Shown: one piece after another, positions 39,174 to 58,418 of the stretch
Layout: each line of letters starts with the position of its first letter
Position numbering within the stretch: position 1 is the first letter of the stretch
Origin: Bacteriovoracaceae bacterium
GTDB lineage: Bacteria > Bdellovibrionota > Bacteriovoracia > Bacteriovoracales > Bacteriovoracaceae
Reading direction: 5' to 3'
NCBI GenBank assembly: GCA_016784965.1
Contig: JADHTQ010000007.1
Location: 1 to 64,000, forward strand
Length of the DNA: 64,000 nucleotides
Position numbers and translations under genes: made by a program
Notes under the pieces: model-generated
What the model saw: the letters and a program-made list of their open reading frames with translations, nothing else
Database searches by the model: none
Told to the model about the DNA's origin: nothing

Positions 39174-39350
39174 CTTTTTGAATCCTTTAGGCCCAGTTAC
39201 CATATATATTAAGCAAACCTTGTGCCAATTTATCGCTGCCTAACATATCGTAATTACGTAGATATTTTGACACTATGGGTGCCAATATGTCTTTTGACAA
39301 ATATCATAAAGGATTAAATCTGGTGACAAATTGACTCAACTTTGAAGCTT

Positions 39351-49821: not shown

Positions 49822-51213
49822 TTGGGAATAGCTTTTGGCTCAATCAACACCGGACTACCAAAGGACATTGTTCAACAGTTAATTGCAGCTGAGAAGATTC
49901 CTATTGAGAAAATGGAAGCCAAAATTGAAAAAATCAACATAAAAAAAGACTTAGTATCAGAGCTAATCCAACTGGTTGAAGACATCCGAGGTGACCTAAA
50001 TGCAAGTAGTAATGCCAGAGGTCTACGTGAATTTTCCTATAGTGGGAATGATGAACTAATCGATGTTACTATTAATAAGGATGTGGCAGTACCTGGAAGC
50101 TATCAATTAGAAGTAGTTCAGCTGGCCCAGAAATCTTCGGCCATGTCTTCTGGATTTGCCGACAAGGATGACAGCTATATCGGTGTTGGTTTTATAAAAT
50201 ACACTCTACCAAACGGCGACAGCCATGAAATCTATGTCGACTCAGAACACTCATCCTTAACGGGGATTGCTGAGCTGATTAATACTGATGAAAGTAATGG
50301 AATGAGCGTAAAGGTTATTAACGATGGTAGCGGATCTGAAACACCATGGCGACTTATTATTAGCCTTGATGGTACTGGTGATTCAAAACTTGCAGAATTC
50401 CCCTATTTCTACTTCGTTGATGGAGAACAAGATTTATATCTGGATCAAGAAAGAAAAGCACATGATGCAAAAATAAAATTAGATGGTTTTGAAATAGAGT
50501 ATCCCACTAACAAGATAAATGACCTAATTCCTGGAGTAACTCTTGATCTACTAAAGGCCGCTCCTGGTGAAGAGTTCACCTTGACTATTGGTGAGGACAC
50601 TGAGGCCATTACTGAAAAAGTCAATACTTTAGTAGATAGAATTAATGCAGTACTCACATTTATAATAAAACAAAATCAAATGGATGAGACTACCGACACC
50701 TCTAAAACATTGGGTGGAGATATGTCTTTGCAAAGTTTAGAAAGTAGACTTCGTAATGTAGTTTTTAAGGATGTTAAAACCAGTGAAGGATTAAAAAGAC
50801 TTGGCTCATTGGGGGTTACATTTCAACGATCTGGTCTTTTAAAGTTTGAAGTAGAAAAGTTTAAAAGCATTACTAAAGAAAACTATAAAATTGTTTCTGA
50901 GGTTTTACGCGGTCACATTACTCAAGAAGGCATAAAGGTAGATGGGTTTATGGATCATTTGGAGGTATTGGTTGGCAATGTCTTAAGAAGACCAAATGGC
51001 CTACTTCAGTCGAGAAGAAGCACTTTCCAAAGTAATATAGATCAAATTGATCGTAGGATAGTGGATAAGCAGCGATTAATTGATAGGAAGGAACAGAATT
51101 TAAAGGAAAAGTTTGCAAGACTTGAAGCAACTATTTCCAAACTAAAGAGTTCTGCAGCTGGATTATCAGGTTTAAGCCAAGGCTCGGCTGACCCTGTTAC
51201 TCAGCTAGGTTAA
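49822..51213 (+). CDS. fliD: flagellar hook-associated protein 2 (filament cap)
   Basis: Forms the cap under which flagellin polymerises. The FliD N-terminal domain (about 8-105: FGSINTGLPKDIVQQLIAAE, then a coiled coil and VPGSYQLEVVQLAQKS) and C-terminal domain (about 225-440: LTIGEDTEAITEKVNTLVDR, LGSLGVTFQRSGLLKFE) are clear, ending in a helical tail. The start is TTG at 49822, six bases after GGAGG; the nearby ATG codons are out of frame or quickly stop. The 463-aa length is typical. An intrinsic terminator follows at once. Confidence 0.92.
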   Translation: MGIAFGSINTGLPKDIVQQLIAAEKIPIEKMEAKIEKINIKKDLVSELIQLVEDIRGDLNASSNARGLREFSYSGNDELIDVTINKDVAVPGSYQLEVVQLAQKSSAMSSGFADKDDSYIGVGFIKYTLPNGDSHEIYVDSEHSSLTGIAELINTDESNGMSVKVINDGSGSETPWRLIISLDGTGDSKLAEFPYFYFVDGEQDLYLDQERKAHDAKIKLDGFEIEYPTNKINDLIPGVTLDLLKAAPGEEFTLTIGEDTEAITEKVNTLVDRINAVLTFIIKQNQMDETTDTSKTLGGDMSLQSLESRLRNVVFKDVKTSEGLKRLGSLGVTFQRSGLLKFEVEKFKSITKENYKIVSEVLRGHITQEGIKVDGFMDHLEVLVGNVLRRPNGLLQSRRSTFQSNIDQIDRRIVDKQRLIDRKEQNLKEKFARLEATISKLKSSAAGLSGLSQGSADPVTQLG

Positions 51214-51322: not shown

Positions 51323-51733
51323 ATGAGTTATGGGTTAGGAGCTTATAAAAAAACATCTGTTCACACTGCAAGTAAGGAACAAATTTTGCTGATGCTGTAT
51401 CAAGCTGCTATTAAAAGTTGTAAAAAATCTATTGAGGCGATTAAAAAAGGTGATGTTGCTACTAAGGGAGAACAAATTGGCAAACTCCAAGACATTGTTA
51501 TTGAGCTAAATCATAGCTTAGACTTTGAGGTAGGTGGTGATATTGCCAGAGATTTGTCAGCGCTTTATGACTTCGTTCTTTATTCGAGTACTCAGGCCAA
51601 TGTTAACATTGATGCTGCACCACTAGAAGGTTGTTTAGGTGTTCTTATAACACTATATGACGGCTGGAAAGAAGCAATCAAAGGCCTGAAAAAAGAAGGA
51701 ACCCCTGAGAAAAAGCAGACAAATAATCCTTAA
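51323..51733 (+). CDS. fliS: flagellin export chaperone FliS
   Basis: Binds the flagellin C-terminus in the cytoplasm and prevents premature polymerisation. A 136-aa all-helical protein with the FliS signatures: SYGLGAYKKTSVHTASKEQILLMLYQ at the N-terminus, IVIELNHSLDFEVGGDIARDL and LYDFV in the middle, ending in a charged tail. The ATG at 51323 was chosen; the longer frame translates through the hairpin and Shine-Dalgarno. It follows fliD, the usual neighbour, across a terminator. Confidence 0.92.
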   Translation: MSYGLGAYKKTSVHTASKEQILLMLYQAAIKSCKKSIEAIKKGDVATKGEQIGKLQDIVIELNHSLDFEVGGDIARDLSALYDFVLYSSTQANVNIDAAPLEGCLGVLITLYDGWKEAIKGLKKEGTPEKKQTNNP

Positions 51734-51768: not shown

Positions 51769-52176
51769 ATGATTCAAGAAATTATAAGTCAGATCATGCG
51801 TCATCTATCTTTGATGGATAGAGTGACAGATATTTCACATAATATTTATAAAGCAGCTGAAGCTGGAGATATTGAATATATTATTAGAGAAACCTCTAAT
51901 AAGGATCGTCTCATAAATATTATACACGCTCTTCAAAATCAAATAGAAGAGCAAATTAGTTGTATAAGAAGTATAGTAGCCGCTAAAGAGATGATGAGTC
52001 TCGTAGTCGTTTGGAATGAGGATCTAAATAAATGGCTAAGTGATATAGAACACATTGATAAAAGTGTAATCTCGCTACTTGAAGAGGAGAAAAATAAAAC
52101 TCAAAAGGAAATTTCAAAAAATTACAAAACTAAAGTACAATTTAAGGGATATAATCTTAAGGATGTAAGATCTTAA
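51769..52176 (+). CDS. small helical protein, FliT/FlgN-like by position
   Basis: A 135-aa protein, almost entirely amphipathic helix (MIQEIISQIMRHLSLMDRVT, IEEQISCIRSIVAAKEMMS), with a basic C-terminal tail. Size, helicity and its place directly after fliS match the FliT chaperone, but no diagnostic residues are recognised, so this is inference from context. GGAAGG lies five bases before the ATG. Confidence 0.5.
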   Translation: MIQEIISQIMRHLSLMDRVTDISHNIYKAAEAGDIEYIIRETSNKDRLINIIHALQNQIEEQISCIRSIVAAKEMMSLVVVWNEDLNKWLSDIEHIDKSVISLLEEEKNKTQKEISKNYKTKVQFKGYNLKDVRS

Positions 52177-52215
52177 GACAGTTATTTGGGATAATAAAAC
52201 ATAAGGTGCGATGAG

Positions 52216-52896
52216 ATGACATTTATAAAAATAACATCATATGAAATAAAGGTTTCCAAAACAAACTATAAAATTCCCGTAGTCAATGGTGTACATTTGC
52301 ACTCAATGTATAATCCCATCAAAGAAGCCTATACTTTAGTAACAAATAATGAAAAACTCCTCAAAAGCAAAAACCAGATACTTATTTTAGGGATGGGATT
52401 TGGGTATCATATCAAGTTTGCAATGACTCAATTGAGTAAACTACATGATAAAAACTATCATATAATGGTAATTGAACCAAACAAGCAAGTCGTTGATGAT
52501 TGTGAGGATGAGGTACTCAAAAACAATAAAAATTTAACCATTCATGGAGGCCTATCAATTGATGATCTTTATAAAAATGATGACCTCATAAACTTTCTGG
52601 CAGATAAACCTGGTATCATTGCCCACCCTGCATCTTTGAGTCTATATGGAGTTTATTTCAAAAAATTCTTAGGATATAGTGCTGCCAATAGTATTTTGGA
52701 TATTTGTAATAATTCAAAATACAGTGAAATCACAGAATATTTCAAAGATTTCAAGAATGTAAAAAATCTAGATTCATACATTGAAAAATCTATTATTCAA
52801 AAGAAAACTATAACTCATGATATTGACTATTTCTTTTTAGCATTTAAAGACATTACTGCAAAAAAGGCAGAGCATTCTCTTGGAGATCAAGGATGA
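52216..52896 (+). CDS. Maf-type N-terminal domain protein (flagellin modification)
   Basis: A 226-aa protein. VNGVHLHSMYNPIKEAYTLV followed by QILILGMGFGYHIKFAM and IMVIEPNKQVVDD resembles the N-terminal half of motility accessory factor (Maf/DUF115-type) glycosyltransferases: the LHS.Y.P..EA box, a Rossmann glycine motif and an acidic strand end. Maf proteins are normally 600 aa or more and carry the sugar transfer domain after this region; here it stops early, so catalysis is uncertain. Its stop overlaps the ATG of the following GT9 gene, implying that the two products work together. Confidence 0.65.
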   Translation: MTFIKITSYEIKVSKTNYKIPVVNGVHLHSMYNPIKEAYTLVTNNEKLLKSKNQILILGMGFGYHIKFAMTQLSKLHDKNYHIMVIEPNKQVVDDCEDEVLKNNKNLTIHGGLSIDDLYKNDDLINFLADKPGIIAHPASLSLYGVYFKKFLGYSAANSILDICNNSKYSEITEYFKDFKNVKNLDSYIEKSIIQKKTITHDIDYFFLAFKDITAKKAEHSLGDQG

Positions 52897-54611
52897 AAAG
52901 CATACTAATCATAAATCTCAAAAGGTATGGCGATATATATCAGATGGCCCACCTGATTGGTTCTATTGTTAAAGAGAGACCTCACCTAACTGTGGAGTTA
53001 CTAGTTTACCAAGAATCCTTAATTGCTGCAAAATCTCTAAAGTATGTTTCTAAAGTCCACAGTATTGATCGACAAAAACTCATTACCTTAAAACAAAGTG
53101 CAATCTTCTCTGATTCACATGCGATAGACTTACTCTTTGAAACATTAAAACCTCTAAAAGATCAAACATTTGATAAGGTTATTAATTACTCTAATGATGT
53201 CGCTAGTACCTTTTTAACGTCTTATTTAACTTCTGGTGGTAAAGCTGGAAATCATGTTGGTGTCCAATTTAATGAGTTTAAAGTTACCACGTTATCAAGC
53301 AAGTGGGCGATGGTTTTTAACGATATCATCACTACCTTTTCAAACACACCTTTTCATTTTATCGATTGTTACCATAACATGTGTGATGTAAAGCATAGTA
53401 ACAATTTTGAAAGAATCACTACCAAGGAAGATCATAATCAAACCGCCTTTGATAATTTTAATCTTATAAGGCAGAACAAATCTCAATATGGAGAACAAGT
53501 TAGAATTATTGGTATTCAACTAAAATCATCAAAAGCTGATAAAGATATTCCTTTTGATACCATTGTAGAGTTAATTAGTAGAATACTTCAAACTCCAGGA
53601 CTCTTCCCTGTTTTATTGATCGCACCAAATAAAGATGAAAAGCAATATGTAACTAACATTAATGAATATTTTGACAACACATTAATAACAGTTGAGGCCG
53701 ACTTTACCTCTGTCCCCTCAGTATTGATGAACATTGATCTTCTTGTTACACCTGACACTGTCATTAAACATATTGCAGATCTTGTAGATACACCAACTGT
53801 TGAGGTATCATTGGGATCTTCTCCATTTTTAAAACAAGGTACCTGTACTGCTGGCAACTTGATTCTGACACCAATAATCTCCTGTAGGCAGTGGTTTAAC
53901 AGAGATGACAAAGAACTATGTAAAAAAATTGAGAAAAAACTCATAGAAAACCCAATCTCTTTTTCAAATGACATATTCCAATGTATCAAGATGCTTCTTA
54001 ATCCAGAAATTAAAGAAGCAATTGAGTTATCTCCTTATCTATCTTTATATAAAGTAAGCCCAGATTCTCTAGGAGTTAATTTTACACATATTGCCGGTTC
54101 GATAGATGACAATATTGAAATTACTAGAAAGATGGCAAGGCTATTTATTGCCAATTTACTGGAATCAAATGCAAATCATCAATATGATTCTGTAATTCAT
54201 TGCCACCCCCTTGATACCATCAGGGCTTGGGCCCAAACAGAAAAAGAGAAGATAAAAAATATAACTAAAGACCTACTCAATACTCTACAAAACATTTCAG
54301 TTCTTCGAACTGATCCAAGTAGTAAAATACGTAGAGAATTCATTTTAAATATTGATACATTAATAGGCTACTGTAACCACGAAAGCTTAATCGCAATTAC
54401 TGCAATTATATTTAGATCAAAAATTGAATCCTTACATTCCAATGATTTTGCACTTAATATGCAATATATTGAGAAATTCATCTTTACACTAAAAGACGAT
54501 CTAAAACTGTTAATCAAAATTTTAAATGACCTAGAAGAGCAAGTTAAAGTAACAGAAGAAAATATCTCACAAATCACAAAAGGAGGTTTAGGGAATAACA
54601 CATTTGCCTAA
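52893..54611 (+). CDS. GT9 (heptosyltransferase-like) protein with C-terminal helical extension
   Basis: A 572-aa cytoplasmic protein. Residues about 1-345 are a GT9 GT-B fold: SILIINLKRYGDIYQMAHLI (GDxxQ acceptor-side motif), IIGIQLKSSKADKDIPFDTI, and LLVTPDTVIKHIADLVDTPT (sugar-nucleotide motif, Asp-Thr in place of the usual D-S/T-G/A). About 230 further residues, mostly helical, follow and are not found in lipopolysaccharide heptosyltransferases. It is coupled to the Maf-N gene upstream. Location within a fliD-fliS block suggests the acceptor is flagellin (inference). Confidence 0.75.
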   Translation: MKSILIINLKRYGDIYQMAHLIGSIVKERPHLTVELLVYQESLIAAKSLKYVSKVHSIDRQKLITLKQSAIFSDSHAIDLLFETLKPLKDQTFDKVINYSNDVASTFLTSYLTSGGKAGNHVGVQFNEFKVTTLSSKWAMVFNDIITTFSNTPFHFIDCYHNMCDVKHSNNFERITTKEDHNQTAFDNFNLIRQNKSQYGEQVRIIGIQLKSSKADKDIPFDTIVELISRILQTPGLFPVLLIAPNKDEKQYVTNINEYFDNTLITVEADFTSVPSVLMNIDLLVTPDTVIKHIADLVDTPTVEVSLGSSPFLKQGTCTAGNLILTPIISCRQWFNRDDKELCKKIEKKLIENPISFSNDIFQCIKMLLNPEIKEAIELSPYLSLYKVSPDSLGVNFTHIAGSIDDNIEITRKMARLFIANLLESNANHQYDSVIHCHPLDTIRAWAQTEKEKIKNITKDLLNTLQNISVLRTDPSSKIRREFILNIDTLIGYCNHESLIAITAIIFRSKIESLHSNDFALNMQYIEKFIFTLKDDLKLLIKILNDLEEQVKVTEENISQITKGGLGNNTFA

Positions 54612-54650
54612 GAAGGCAAGATCAATTTCACTTCATAATCGAGGACAATC

Positions 54651-56333
54651 ATGAGTAACACAAGCTCAAACATTGAATTAGAACCCATGAGTAACACACA
54701 GACCGAGCAAAAAACTATTTGTATCGTACAGATTACTCGTATTGGTGACACTGTTCAAACACTACAAGCTGCCAATCTACTCAAAAAAGAAAATCCTCAA
54801 CTAAGACTTATATTTGTCGGAAGAGAAAAATTTGCAAAACCACTGATGTTTTTATTAGATGTAACATTTGATAAATGTATCATGATCTCATCAAGTAACG
54901 ATTCTTTAAGTGAAATTAATAATGAAAATATTGATGTTACAGTTAACTTATCATTCTGCAAAGAATCCTCTAACTTGTGTGCCAGGATAAAATCCACACA
55001 TAAACTTGGCTTACAATTTAGAGATAATGGTTCAATTTCAATTCCAGATAAATGGTCTCAGTTAATTTATGCAAGCGTTATGAGAGGCCCATTAAACCCA
55101 TTTTCTTTAGTAGATCTTTTTTGTGAGATCTTAGGAGTTAAAAAATTAACTATACCTTCTAATACACCTAAGCCACAAATGATTAATGCTGGAAAAAACA
55201 TTGCTATCCATCCATTTGCCTCACATGAGAAAAAAAGATGGAAGCTCTATAAATGGGTTGAAGTAATATACAAATTATTACATACTGACTCTGAGTTAAC
55301 TATTTCATTATTTGGAAGTCAAGACGAGCAAGTTGATGCTGACGAACTTATAGCTTCACCCACTTTAAATCAATATCGTTCTAGAATTTTTAATTATGTC
55401 GGCAAGACAACTATTTATGAGTTAACCGAAAAATTAGAAGAAAGCATGCTATTTGTAGGTCATGATTCTATGATCGGACATCTTGCTACATTATCTGGGA
55501 TACAGACACTAACTATCTCTTTAGGATGTGTCCGTCCAATTGAAACAACACCGTATGGTGAAGGAAATTATAATATTGTTCCAAAAAGTGATTGTTTCCC
55601 TTGCTTTGTTAAAAGCAAATGTCCTTTTTATAAATGCCACACCGACGTTTCTTATAAAGTTGTTGTATCTGCAATCATACAACTGTTAGAACAAAAACAG
55701 ATAACTAGGGAATACCTTACACAAGCTAACTCCAGCTTTCACTTAGCGATGGTCAATTTTTATATAACACGTTTTTCAAACCAGAACTGGTTAAAACTAG
55801 AAAGTATCATTGATCAAGAATTAAAATTAGAAGATATTTTTAAAATGTTTTATAGAATTACTTGGCCATACCTATTTTCTGAGATCGAAGAATACAATCC
55901 TTACCCTAAATTGACCACTAGTACACATAAACAATTATTGCAATACTTAGATGGCCTTAGAAAGTTAAATCAATTAATGGAATTTGGTAAAAAATACTCA
56001 CAATATATTTACGAAGAACTCACTTCTAAAACACCAAATTTAAGAGAAATTAAAGAATTTTCAGCTAAAATAGAAGAGATCGATCAATTGCAAAACGTTA
56101 TCAAAAAAGAATATCCACTACTATCACCTCTTTTAGATTTCTTCACCGTGGCCCAAGGTAATCTTGAAGGTGAGGGAATGACCCAATTAACTGAAAGTTC
56201 ATATTTAACATTTACAAATTCCTCAATTGCAGTAAAAACTGTAATTGAGCTACTTAGAGTTACAATAAACAAACATTCTTCATCAACTGGAAACTATATG
56301 GCAAATAACAGTGCCACTACATCCAATAATTAA
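54651..56333 (+). CDS. second GT9 (heptosyltransferase-like) protein with C-terminal helical extension
   Basis: A 560-aa paralogue-like neighbour. GT9 motifs are clearer here: CIVQITRIGDTVQTLQAANLL, then IHPFASHEKKRWKLYKWVEV, then LFVGHDSMIGHLATLSGIQT, and a Cys cluster CFPCFVKSKCPFYKC resembling the metal/disulfide loop of heptosyltransferases. Residues about 350-560 are a helical extension. The N-terminus contains an in-frame repeat of MSNT (ATGAGTAACACA at 54651 and 54687); the first ATG has the better ribosome binding site (GAGG). Likely a cytoplasmic glycosyltransferase acting on a protein rather than on lipid A (inference). Confidence 0.78.
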   Translation: MSNTSSNIELEPMSNTQTEQKTICIVQITRIGDTVQTLQAANLLKKENPQLRLIFVGREKFAKPLMFLLDVTFDKCIMISSSNDSLSEINNENIDVTVNLSFCKESSNLCARIKSTHKLGLQFRDNGSISIPDKWSQLIYASVMRGPLNPFSLVDLFCEILGVKKLTIPSNTPKPQMINAGKNIAIHPFASHEKKRWKLYKWVEVIYKLLHTDSELTISLFGSQDEQVDADELIASPTLNQYRSRIFNYVGKTTIYELTEKLEESMLFVGHDSMIGHLATLSGIQTLTISLGCVRPIETTPYGEGNYNIVPKSDCFPCFVKSKCPFYKCHTDVSYKVVVSAIIQLLEQKQITREYLTQANSSFHLAMVNFYITRFSNQNWLKLESIIDQELKLEDIFKMFYRITWPYLFSEIEEYNPYPKLTTSTHKQLLQYLDGLRKLNQLMEFGKKYSQYIYEELTSKTPNLREIKEFSAKIEEIDQLQNVIKKEYPLLSPLLDFFTVAQGNLEGEGMTQLTESSYLTFTNSSIAVKTVIELLRVTINKHSSSTGNYMANNSATTSNN

Positions 56334-56343
56334 GGGAATTTCT

Positions 56344-56967
56344 ATGCCTGAAATTACTATAAATACAGTACCAATGACCAGTGAACTTAACACAAAAAAA
56401 ACTGTCAAAGAGGCCATAGACCAGCTTCATAATTTTCAACACTTCAAAAAAAGAACAGTTGTATCAATAACACTAGATGGTCAAATGATTAATATATATG
56501 ATGAAGATCCTTTGTTGGTGACACCAATAGATGAGTTTAGCAGTGTCGACTTCACAGTCAAAACCAATATTGAACTGGCCCTTGATGCTCTTGATTCAAG
56601 TTTTTTATATATTGATGCTGTACTAGAAAGTATAGAGTTATTAACCCAGCTCTATCAAGAAAATAAGTATACTGAGGCAAACTCAAAATTCACAGAAGTA
56701 ATTGATATTATGAGTTTATTTGTACAGTTAATATCACAAATTCACACAATTTTTAGAGATAACCTCACGAGTGAATACAAAAAAGATGATAAAGTAGAAG
56801 AGTTAGAGCTACATCTTCTTGCAATTTTAAAAGCAATAGTTCCTGCACAAGAAAAAAAGGATATTATCATGCTTTGTGACTTGCTAGAATATGAACTTGT
56901 AGATAACCTGAACCAATGGAAAACAAGTGCTATTCCAATTCTAAAAAAAGAATCCACAAACAGTTAA
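56344..56967 (+). CDS. hypothetical protein of the flagellar modification block
   Basis: A 207-aa protein I do not recognise. The first ~75 residues predict as a small beta-rich module (RTVVSITLDGQMINIYDEDP, ending SVDFTVKTN). The rest is helical (YIDAVLESIELLTQLYQENK). The ATG at 56344 has AAGGGAA upstream; the longer frame begins inside the preceding gene. Its 3' end overlaps the histidine kinase start by 52 bp in another frame, suggesting tight coupling. No membrane segment or signal peptide. Confidence 0.65.
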   Translation: MPEITINTVPMTSELNTKKTVKEAIDQLHNFQHFKKRTVVSITLDGQMINIYDEDPLLVTPIDEFSSVDFTVKTNIELALDALDSSFLYIDAVLESIELLTQLYQENKYTEANSKFTEVIDIMSLFVQLISQIHTIFRDNLTSEYKKDDKVEELELHLLAILKAIVPAQEKKDIIMLCDLLEYELVDNLNQWKTSAIPILKKESTNS

Positions 56968-58418
56968 AGAAAAATCAAACCTTATCAAGAAAATACTTCA
57001 GACTCCTAAAAAAGCACAGCTTTAATCAAGAGGTCAGCAAACTTGACCAAATCTTAAAAAGAAACAATGAATTTGAATCATTTCTCAATCAGCTAGAATC
57101 ACTCAAAGCTGTCCCCGAAGTGCTACTAAACCTTAAAGATTTTAAGGGTTATCGGACATGTCAATTACTAGTTCATGAGAAAGGAAAATCTAATATCATA
57201 AGCTATAATTACGATACCCAGATCGGTAAAACAACTACAGAACATCCCGTTAACTTCTTCAATTCAGTTTATAATATCATCAAAAAAAGTAAGCTAAAGC
57301 TGTTTGAACAATCCAAAATACCACAAAATGACATCTCAATTTTAGGTACATTCTTAGCAAAGGAGTTTGACCTAAAGGCACACAGAATAATATATATAAT
57401 CTCACGCAATGATTTTTTACCCTCTACAGAGGATGAGCGCCTTAGTTTTGATAACCTTTGTTATGTTCTGGGACCATTATTTACACATCTGCTCAATAGG
57501 AAAAAGATTTTAGACCGAAAAAAAAATATAATCCTTGCACTTAATAACATTCCATCTCCTGCAATAATTATTGATAAAAAGACCAATATTAATTTTTTTA
57601 CAAATCGTCTCTATCAGGAAAATGAAGTCCAAATTCAATCTGATGACCTATATTCTCCTTCACCAATGCCCTTATCAAACAATTATGAGCTCGTTTTGTT
57701 TTTTTCACGAAATGAAATACTTACACCTGATATCCATCAATTCCTACGAATTCAATTATTAGGAGAATTATTAAATACTTTAAGTCATGAATTAAGCAAT
57801 CCACTATTTGGACTAAAACTTGCTACAGAGTTGCTCATTGCTAATACCTCAAATTGTGAACACAAAGAAACCCTTGAAGAAGTATCAAATAATTGTATCC
57901 GTTGCCAGAAAATTATTCACAACTTTTCTGGTCTTTATAGCGATAAGCCAGTATTTGTAAAAATAGATATAAGAGAAATAATAAGGGAAGTTCTAACTGT
58001 AACAAAAAGTGAAACACAACATATCACAAAGGAAATTATTAGTTCTAAGTGCGATGATTTACTTTTTATAGTTAACACAAATCCAACTTGGGTCGCACAG
58101 ATCATTTTCAACTTTATAATAAATAGCTCACAGGCCATAAAAAGTGCAAGCAATGACTTATTTAAAACATTTATCCATACTTCAATCGAACCTGATGAGT
58201 GTTCAATCACTATTTCTGTCACAGATAATGGTCCAGGAATTGATAGTAGTGTTTTAGATAAAGTATCTATGCCTTTTATTACAACTAAACAAAAAGGAAC
58301 CGGATTGGGACTTGCTATATGTCAAAGCCTTGCTAAAAAATTGGGTGGAGAAATTACCTTCTTTAATAATCCAGATAGAGCAGGAGCCACTTTCTCATTA
58401 ATTTTACATAGAAAATAG
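56916..58418 (+). CDS. soluble histidine kinase, NtrB/FlrB-like
   Basis: A 500-aa cytoplasmic sensor kinase with no membrane segment. About 60-205 looks like a GAF-type sensor, about 205-270 a PAS-like segment (ALNNIPSPAIIIDKKTNI), then the H-box LLNTLSHELSNPLFGLKLA (His291), N-box QIIFNFIINSSQAI, G1 VTDNGPGIDSS and G2 KGTGLGLAICQSLA. H-box style and domain order resemble kinases that control sigma-54 regulators such as FlrB or NtrB. The ATG overlaps the upstream gene by 52 bp without a strong Shine-Dalgarno, so a later non-ATG start is possible. No cognate response regulator is adjacent. Confidence 0.82.
   Translation: MENKCYSNSKKRIHKQLKKNQTLSRKYFRLLKKHSFNQEVSKLDQILKRNNEFESFLNQLESLKAVPEVLLNLKDFKGYRTCQLLVHEKGKSNIISYNYDTQIGKTTTEHPVNFFNSVYNIIKKSKLKLFEQSKIPQNDISILGTFLAKEFDLKAHRIIYIISRNDFLPSTEDERLSFDNLCYVLGPLFTHLLNRKKILDRKKNIILALNNIPSPAIIIDKKTNINFFTNRLYQENEVQIQSDDLYSPSPMPLSNNYELVLFFSRNEILTPDIHQFLRIQLLGELLNTLSHELSNPLFGLKLATELLIANTSNCEHKETLEEVSNNCIRCQKIIHNFSGLYSDKPVFVKIDIREIIREVLTVTKSETQHITKEIISSKCDDLLFIVNTNPTWVAQIIFNFIINSSQAIKSASNDLFKTFIHTSIEPDECSITISVTDNGPGIDSSVLDKVSMPFITTKQKGTGLGLAICQSLAKKLGGEITFFNNPDRAGATFSLILHRK

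Follow-up and report, generated by a model that had tools for sequence, protein, structure and literature searches.

The known routes to glycosylated flagellin are single-chain Maf enzymes, FlmG and glycosylation islands, and the sugars involved are mostly nonulosonic acids. The present work concerns a gene block that may serve the same purpose with a different set of proteins. It lies directly behind the flagellar genes fliD and fliS in a stretch of 64,000 nucleotides (hereafter the window) from a Bacteriovoracaceae bacterium of the phylum Bdellovibrionota. Among the closest described systems, Maf1 binds flagellin in the cytoplasm and passes it to a FliS-type chaperone (PMC4065374), and in FlmG of Caulobacter a separate N-terminal domain confers flagellin specificity (PMC7591256). 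Enzymes of the GT9 fold can glycosylate proteins, as described for TibC (PMC4358343). GT9 genes have been noted in a flagellar setting before: variable region 1 of enterobacterial flag-2 loci has them sporadically (70 strains), among several glycosyltransferase families, and they are predicted to glycosylate flagellin there (PMC6993521). The block described here differs from flag-2 in that a pair of GT9 genes is fixed, phylum-wide, together with a stand-alone homologue of the Maf N-terminal domain (MafN) and with helical tails on the GT9 proteins. No description of a MafN–GT9–GT9 set was found in the open-access literature. From the comparisons of sequence reported below, we lean towards reading the block as a cytoplasmic flagellin-glycosylation module that belongs to the late flagellar operon and would split the work of Maf over three chains.

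The genes of the block, all of them on the forward strand of the window, are as follows.

49822..51213, + strand: fliD (filament cap); FliD_N and FliD_C above the Pfam cut-off; syntenic in relatives; the anchor of the block
51323..51733, + strand: fliS (flagellin export chaperone); ATG at 51323; PF02561 with E=3.5e-36; TIGR00208 above cut-off
51769..52176, + strand: fliT-like gene for a small helical protein, assigned by position and size; PF05400 (FliT) matched by 11/32 orthologues
52216..52896, + strand: mafN (226 aa); stand-alone homologue of the Maf N-terminal domain
52893..54611, + strand: gt9a; PF01075 with 51.5 bits; ATGA overlap with mafN
54651..56333, + strand: gt9b; PF01075 with 57.7 bits
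56344..56967, + strand: small conserved protein of no known family; aligned in 32 loci
56916..58418, + strand: histidine kinase; HisKA and HATPase_c above cut-off; FlrB/FleS-like by position only

All the genes that an earlier note, made from the letters alone, had named after fliD-fliS are thus in place, and so is the overlap that it reported between mafN (end at 52896) and the first GT9 gene (start at 52893). Its FliT-like label holds at the family level; the copy in the window itself has no match to PF05400 in the Pfam search. The genome (4.6 Mb in 126 contigs, the window lying on contig C116) carries a single copy of FliS, which is that of this block.

On the basis of profile comparison, MafN is a free-standing homologue of the region that precedes the catalytic domain in full-length Maf proteins. 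When the MafN profile was aligned by hhalign with the N-terminal parts of the full-length Mafs that another family (f27) of the same phylum has, the probability was 96.9% and E=1.9e-10; at one of the f27 loci (L296), a flagellin gene follows the true Maf directly and fliD is nearby. The Maf N-terminal domain PF20157 is matched by 16/28 MafN orthologues (best E 5.7e-5), so the stand-alone Maf N-terminal domain proposed earlier is borne out for the family. In the phylum, 325 genomes were searched with PF20157, which matched at the mafN position beside fliS in many of them; 14 control genomes gave no match. The invariant residues of MafN are P21, H29, S30, P34, E37, G59, G61, H65, P132, H137 and S140. 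Single-sequence searches of the PDB with MafN and both GT9 proteins yielded nothing useful, and the profile search with MafN found no solved Maf.

MafN ends ahead of the MptE-like catalytic domain (PF01973), which is not in the same chain and has no match anywhere in this genome. Among 129 genomes of the order Bacteriovoracales, 110 have no match to PF01973, though nearly all have flagellin, and 19 have a match of any kind. The two of these matches that were read are O-antigen-type or fused proteins and were rejected as flagellar Mafs. The module thus resembles the Maf enzymes (Aeromonas Maf1, Clostridium, Campylobacter) in the homology of its N-terminal domain, in its linkage to flagellar filament genes and in its proposed action in the cytoplasm before the hand-over to FliS. 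Maf, however, is one chain with a PF01973 catalytic domain and transfers nonulosonic acids, whereas here PF01973 is missing and two GT9 proteins stand beside MafN. The module would work like Maf without being a Maf, the same-chain catalytic domain, a defining feature, having been looked for and found absent.

Both long proteins belong to family GT9, as had been supposed: their Pfam scores (see list) are far above the cut-off of 22 bits. Their matches to the NCBIfam models of heptosyltransferases I, II and III are weak and far under the cut-offs, so they are not ordinary lipopolysaccharide (LPS) enzymes of those equivalogs. AlphaFold2 models built with family alignments have a mean predicted local distance difference test score (pLDDT) of 89.9 for GT9a and 88.7 for GT9b. 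In these models, the GT-B core (about 1–335 in GT9a, about 20–350 in GT9b) is followed by a tail made of a β-hairpin and a helical bundle (about 383–564 and 368–556, respectively, both with high predicted confidence). The extra helical residues announced by the earlier note are therefore present in both predicted structures, and the two tails have their helices in the same order and of similar lengths. The best PDB folds found by Foldseek were, for both models, the GT9 protein 3tov and the heptosyltransferases WaaC and WaaF, followed in the case of GT9b by TibC; a viral fold search returned generic glycosyltransferases only. GT9a and GT9b are thus predicted to be heptosyltransferase-fold proteins with an additional helical bundle. 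By hhalign, the two tails align over 158 columns with E 0.0038 in a single comparison (probability 9%), and the GT9b tail aligns with FliS over 104 columns with E 0.009 (probability 4%). Comparisons of the GT9 tails with FliS, FliT, MafN and the small protein gave weak values only, of which these two are the best, and no homology between tail and FliS is claimed. Residues conserved in the GT9b tail include K473, E476 and L491.

The motifs RxGD, HPFAS, KxW and HDS of GT9b, and its cluster CxPC...C...CH (C315, C318, C324, C329, H330), are invariant in 21 long sequences whose mean column identity is 49%. The catalytic-type Asp of GT9b (Asp33) and its donor-site motifs are all among the invariant residues. 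A tighter alignment was used for the pattern scan, a diverse one being too divergent. Such invariance would be best explained by purifying selection on catalysis. In GT9a, the catalytic-type Asp14 is present in 23/28 orthologues, and the TPDTxxKH-type residues and the donor-side Lys217 in 17–19/28; the copy in the window retains Asp14 and TPDTxxKH.

GT9b shares with TibC and AAH the GT-B heptosyltransferase fold of enzymes that act on proteins, as well as a four-Cys cluster. Similar Cys clusters occur in other GT9 proteins. TibC differs in having an N-terminal β-barrel and autotransporter targets; the GT9b model has no barrel, opens with a core strand at residue 22 and ends in the helical tail. 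For lack of the barrel, the two long proteins are not bacterial autotransporter heptosyltransferases (BAHT) of the TibC type. The Cys4 iron finger of TibC is spread (339, 342, 358, 370), and the invariant Cys4-His cluster of GT9b is compact (CxxC-x5-C-x4-CH). Like FlmG, the module would be a cytoplasmic flagellin O-glycosyltransferase with a separate flagellin-binding part. FlmG transfers pseudaminic acid and has the binding and catalytic parts in one chain, whereas here a GT9 protein carries a C-terminal helical tail. Tetratricopeptide repeats (TPR) are not matched by any protein of the window in the Pfam search; the TPR fusion of the FlmG type is absent, and the GT9 proteins are not FlmG. 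A TPR protein encoded by a gene of its own is present in other families only (see below).

The conservation of the block was analysed in 55 loci of Bacteriovoracales with at least 7 kb of sequence after fliS. There is a GT9-type gene after fliS in 54 of the 55, and 39 show the full series fliS-fliT-mafN-gt9a-gt9b-small-kinase. Another 11 have gt9b with neither mafN nor gt9a. The remaining five comprise two without a recognised kinase gene, one without gt9b and kinase, one without the small gene and one with none. Between mafN and gt9a the median gap is −1 nt, the two genes overlapping or abutting, and a gt9a of the block is always accompanied by mafN. Across the order, gt9a was found in 90/129 genomes, and the named records with gt9b are Bacteriovorax, Halobacteriovorax and other Bacteriovoracales. 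Four genomes of genus g27 and one of g26 have no FliS, no flagellin and no gt9a.

One genome has a further mafN-gt9a pair away from the flagellar block (L037:7202-9460, on G128:C7), by a gene for a PilB/MshE-type secretion ATPase and near mgtE. It might modify a pilin.

Outside the order, 19 loci from eight families have the block behind fliD-fliS, two of these loci without a recognised mafN and three with a single GT9 gene. A fragment at a contig end from a ninth family (L217) has the order mafN-GT9-GT9-small-kinase. The co-occurrence check suggested earlier thus extends the block beyond Bacteriovoracales, and the arrangement is no local accident. Relatives keep both GT9 genes directly after fliD-fliS and not among LPS genes, the opposite of the genomic finding that the earlier note said would refute its reading, and the other GT9 genes of this genome lie elsewhere. 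Throughout the phylum the set has a fixed place next to fliD-fliS, with mafN and gt9a staying together. In a tree of 68 GT9 cores, a branch with 99/99 support divides first- from second-position genes across classes; the tree has no established root, and long-branched LPS GT9s are placed within the second-position genes. With these caveats, the split fits one old tandem pair of GT9 genes.

The loci of the other families usually include an added gene of about 320–420 residues between fliT and the module, and the five copies tested are TPR proteins. This TPR gene (L212:7739-8791, with equivalents in L215, L220, L225 and L229) usually precedes mafN; it occurs in Bdellovibrionaceae-like and other families and not in Bacteriovoracales. 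The protein is a candidate flagellin- or chaperone-binding subunit.

In one of these families (f3), the gene order is flagellin, flagellin, fliD, fliS. In Bdellovibrio bacteriovorus HD100, fliC1 and fliC2 are Bd0604 and Bd0606 (PMC2791853), and fliD and fliS are Bd0611 and Bd0612 (PMC9140294). Because the order in f3 matches the known order in HD100, Bdellovibrio very probably carries the module just after fliS.

The sequence of events that we propose is the following. Flagellin made in the cytoplasm would be recognized by MafN and the helical tails, working with or beside FliS; this step is suggested by analogy with Maf1 and FlmG. GT9b would then move a sugar from a nucleotide donor, most likely adenosine diphosphate (ADP)-heptose, onto Ser/Thr residues of the short flagellins. 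The role of GT9a would vary with the lineage: a second transferase where its motifs survive, a non-catalytic partner elsewhere. The modified flagellin would finally be piloted to export by FliS. A more specific, phylum-wide scheme for the predatory bacteria and their relatives can be put forward only tentatively: the acceptor would be offered by free MafN to two GT9 heptosyltransferases with helical tails that dock flagellin or FliS, this three-chain machine would place heptose on flagellin, and in lineages where the enzyme has decayed the tail would persist as a chaperone.

ADP-heptose is preferred as the donor because the genome can apparently make it and because hldC is linked to flagellin genes. 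The genome encodes an hldA-like kinase (TIGR02198, 308 bits, under the cut-off of 345) and hldC (TIGR02199, over the cut-off), which makes this sugar plausible. In 64 of the 67 cases with both genes on one contig, hldC lies 6–19 kb downstream of fliS in the opposite orientation. In most flagellated relatives examined (L264–L294), flagellin genes stand immediately behind hldC or follow it after a small gene. In the genome of the window (G000:C52), hldC (L247:8169-8636) is followed by three flagellin genes from 8893. This position beside the flagellin genes gives circumstantial support, not proof, for heptose. A nonulosonic acid is also a possible donor, given the PseI and PseG genes of the genome. 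Contig G000:C30 (L244:3096-8676) carries two NeuB-type genes, PseG/PseH-type genes and a flippase-like gene, a cluster for pseudaminic acid synthesis that probably serves a surface polysaccharide.

Several observations weigh against flagellin glycosylation by these three chains. The match of the window's own MafN to PF20157 (E=0.01) is under the Pfam threshold. The locus L090 keeps a GT9b with full motifs without mafN and gt9a, so the three chains are not strictly obligate in at least one lineage, in which GT9b may act alone. The motifs of GT9a are degenerate in about a third of the sampled sequences (about 10/28), with the gene kept. In the genus groups g36 and g43 (L096–L099, L102–L108), GT9b has lost RxGD, HPFAS, GHDS and the Cys cluster, and the gene is still in place. 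The central regions of g36 flagellins are not reduced in Ser/Thr relative to intact lineages (p=0.68); the expected drop not being seen, the pattern of decay fails to identify flagellin as the acceptor. No weight was given to small N- and C-terminal differences in the Ser/Thr of these flagellins (p about 0.03, without correction and among related sequences). In non-flagellated relatives, hldC is retained in this neighbourhood with flagellin missing, and its linkage to flagellin genes may consequently be old synteny of an LPS gene. Lastly, a search of the open-access literature gave no report of glycosylated flagellin in Bdellovibrionota. The Maf–GT9 glycosylation module envisaged by the earlier note is upheld in part, as regards MafN homology, GT9 identity, tails and, above all, co-occurrence; catalysis by both GT9 proteins, in view of the motif losses, is not general.

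The decayed lineages bear on an alternative that we consider unlikely, namely that the GT9 proteins are mainly non-catalytic assembly factors, with the tail as a co-chaperone for flagellin, FliS or FliT, MafN as an adaptor, and sugar transfer as an ancestral activity that was partly lost. GT9b of g36 and g43 (and of one g10 genome) is shorter, about 443–452 aa. The decayed copies score 52–72 bits over the full length of the tail versus 12–54 bits for the core remnants. Since the tail is conserved where the catalytic motifs are lost, it has a function of its own, and these proteins represent an apparent transition from enzyme to scaffold. The retention of gt9a genes with lost motifs points in the same direction. 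On the other side, the motif residues of GT9b are invariant in the long copies of most lineages, the window included. Moreover, mafN and gt9a have both been lost from g36, where the GT9b core is decayed, as would be expected of genes that served transfer; this pattern would fit a loss of sugar transfer with the binding function retained.

Four loci of g36 and g43 (L087, L088, L091, L092) have GT9 genes with GT9a-like cores outside the flagellar block. They nest near GT9a with modest support and are possibly relocated copies. Of the GT9-like open reading frames outside the block in these groups (L087–L092), which were set aside as candidates, the only one scanned (L088) lies in a polysaccharide cluster.

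It is improbable that the GT9 proteins add sugars to lipid A-core or to the LPS of the sheath around the flagellum, with the operon position reflecting co-regulation with sheath growth. LPS core is the usual product of GT9 enzymes, and the hldC gene near the block is presumably kept by non-flagellated relatives for LPS. The flagella of Bdellovibrio are sheathed (PMC6561027). The genome, however, has five GT9 genes in total, and one of those outside the block lies beside the hldA-like kinase gene, so core heptosyltransfer could be covered elsewhere. Each GT9 protein of the block also has a long helical tail, and the pair is coupled to a domain of the Maf type, known from protein glycosylation; their genes stay with chaperone genes and not with LPS genes. 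Equally improbable is an acceptor other than flagellin, such as the cap protein FliD or a hook-associated protein: the block begins with fliD, enterobacterial FliT-type proteins are FliD chaperones and the flagellin genes of this genome are located elsewhere, but Bdellovibrionaceae-like and other families have flagellin genes immediately upstream of the block, and Maf N-terminal domains are part of flagellin-modifying enzymes.

If flagellin glycosylation by MafN and the GT9 pair is correct, the recognition domain of Maf can work apart from its catalytic domain, and the sheathed flagellum of Bdellovibrio could be tested for a sugar that has apparently never been sought there. In B. bacteriovorus HD100, an organism with gene-deletion tools, the module is predicted right after fliS (bd0612; PMC9140294).

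The last two genes of the block show a further conserved feature. The small gene runs tens of bases into the kinase gene (56916–56967 in the window), and this overlap is kept in all 49 of the adjacent pairs measured, which suggests that the two are translationally coupled. The small protein has a helical C-terminal part with a conserved end and, in part of the family only, an N-terminal domain; the Pfam search gave no recurring match for this family.

The window was also searched for non-coding motifs. No Rfam family, tRNA or exact flagellar σ28 pattern was found in it, and matches to a σ70-like pattern are below chance. The σ54-like −24/−12 pattern has 54 matches with at most two mismatches, against 37 expected, and none of 100 shuffles reached as high a number. 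An exact σ54-like −24/−12 match is located at 39213–39227 on the reverse strand.

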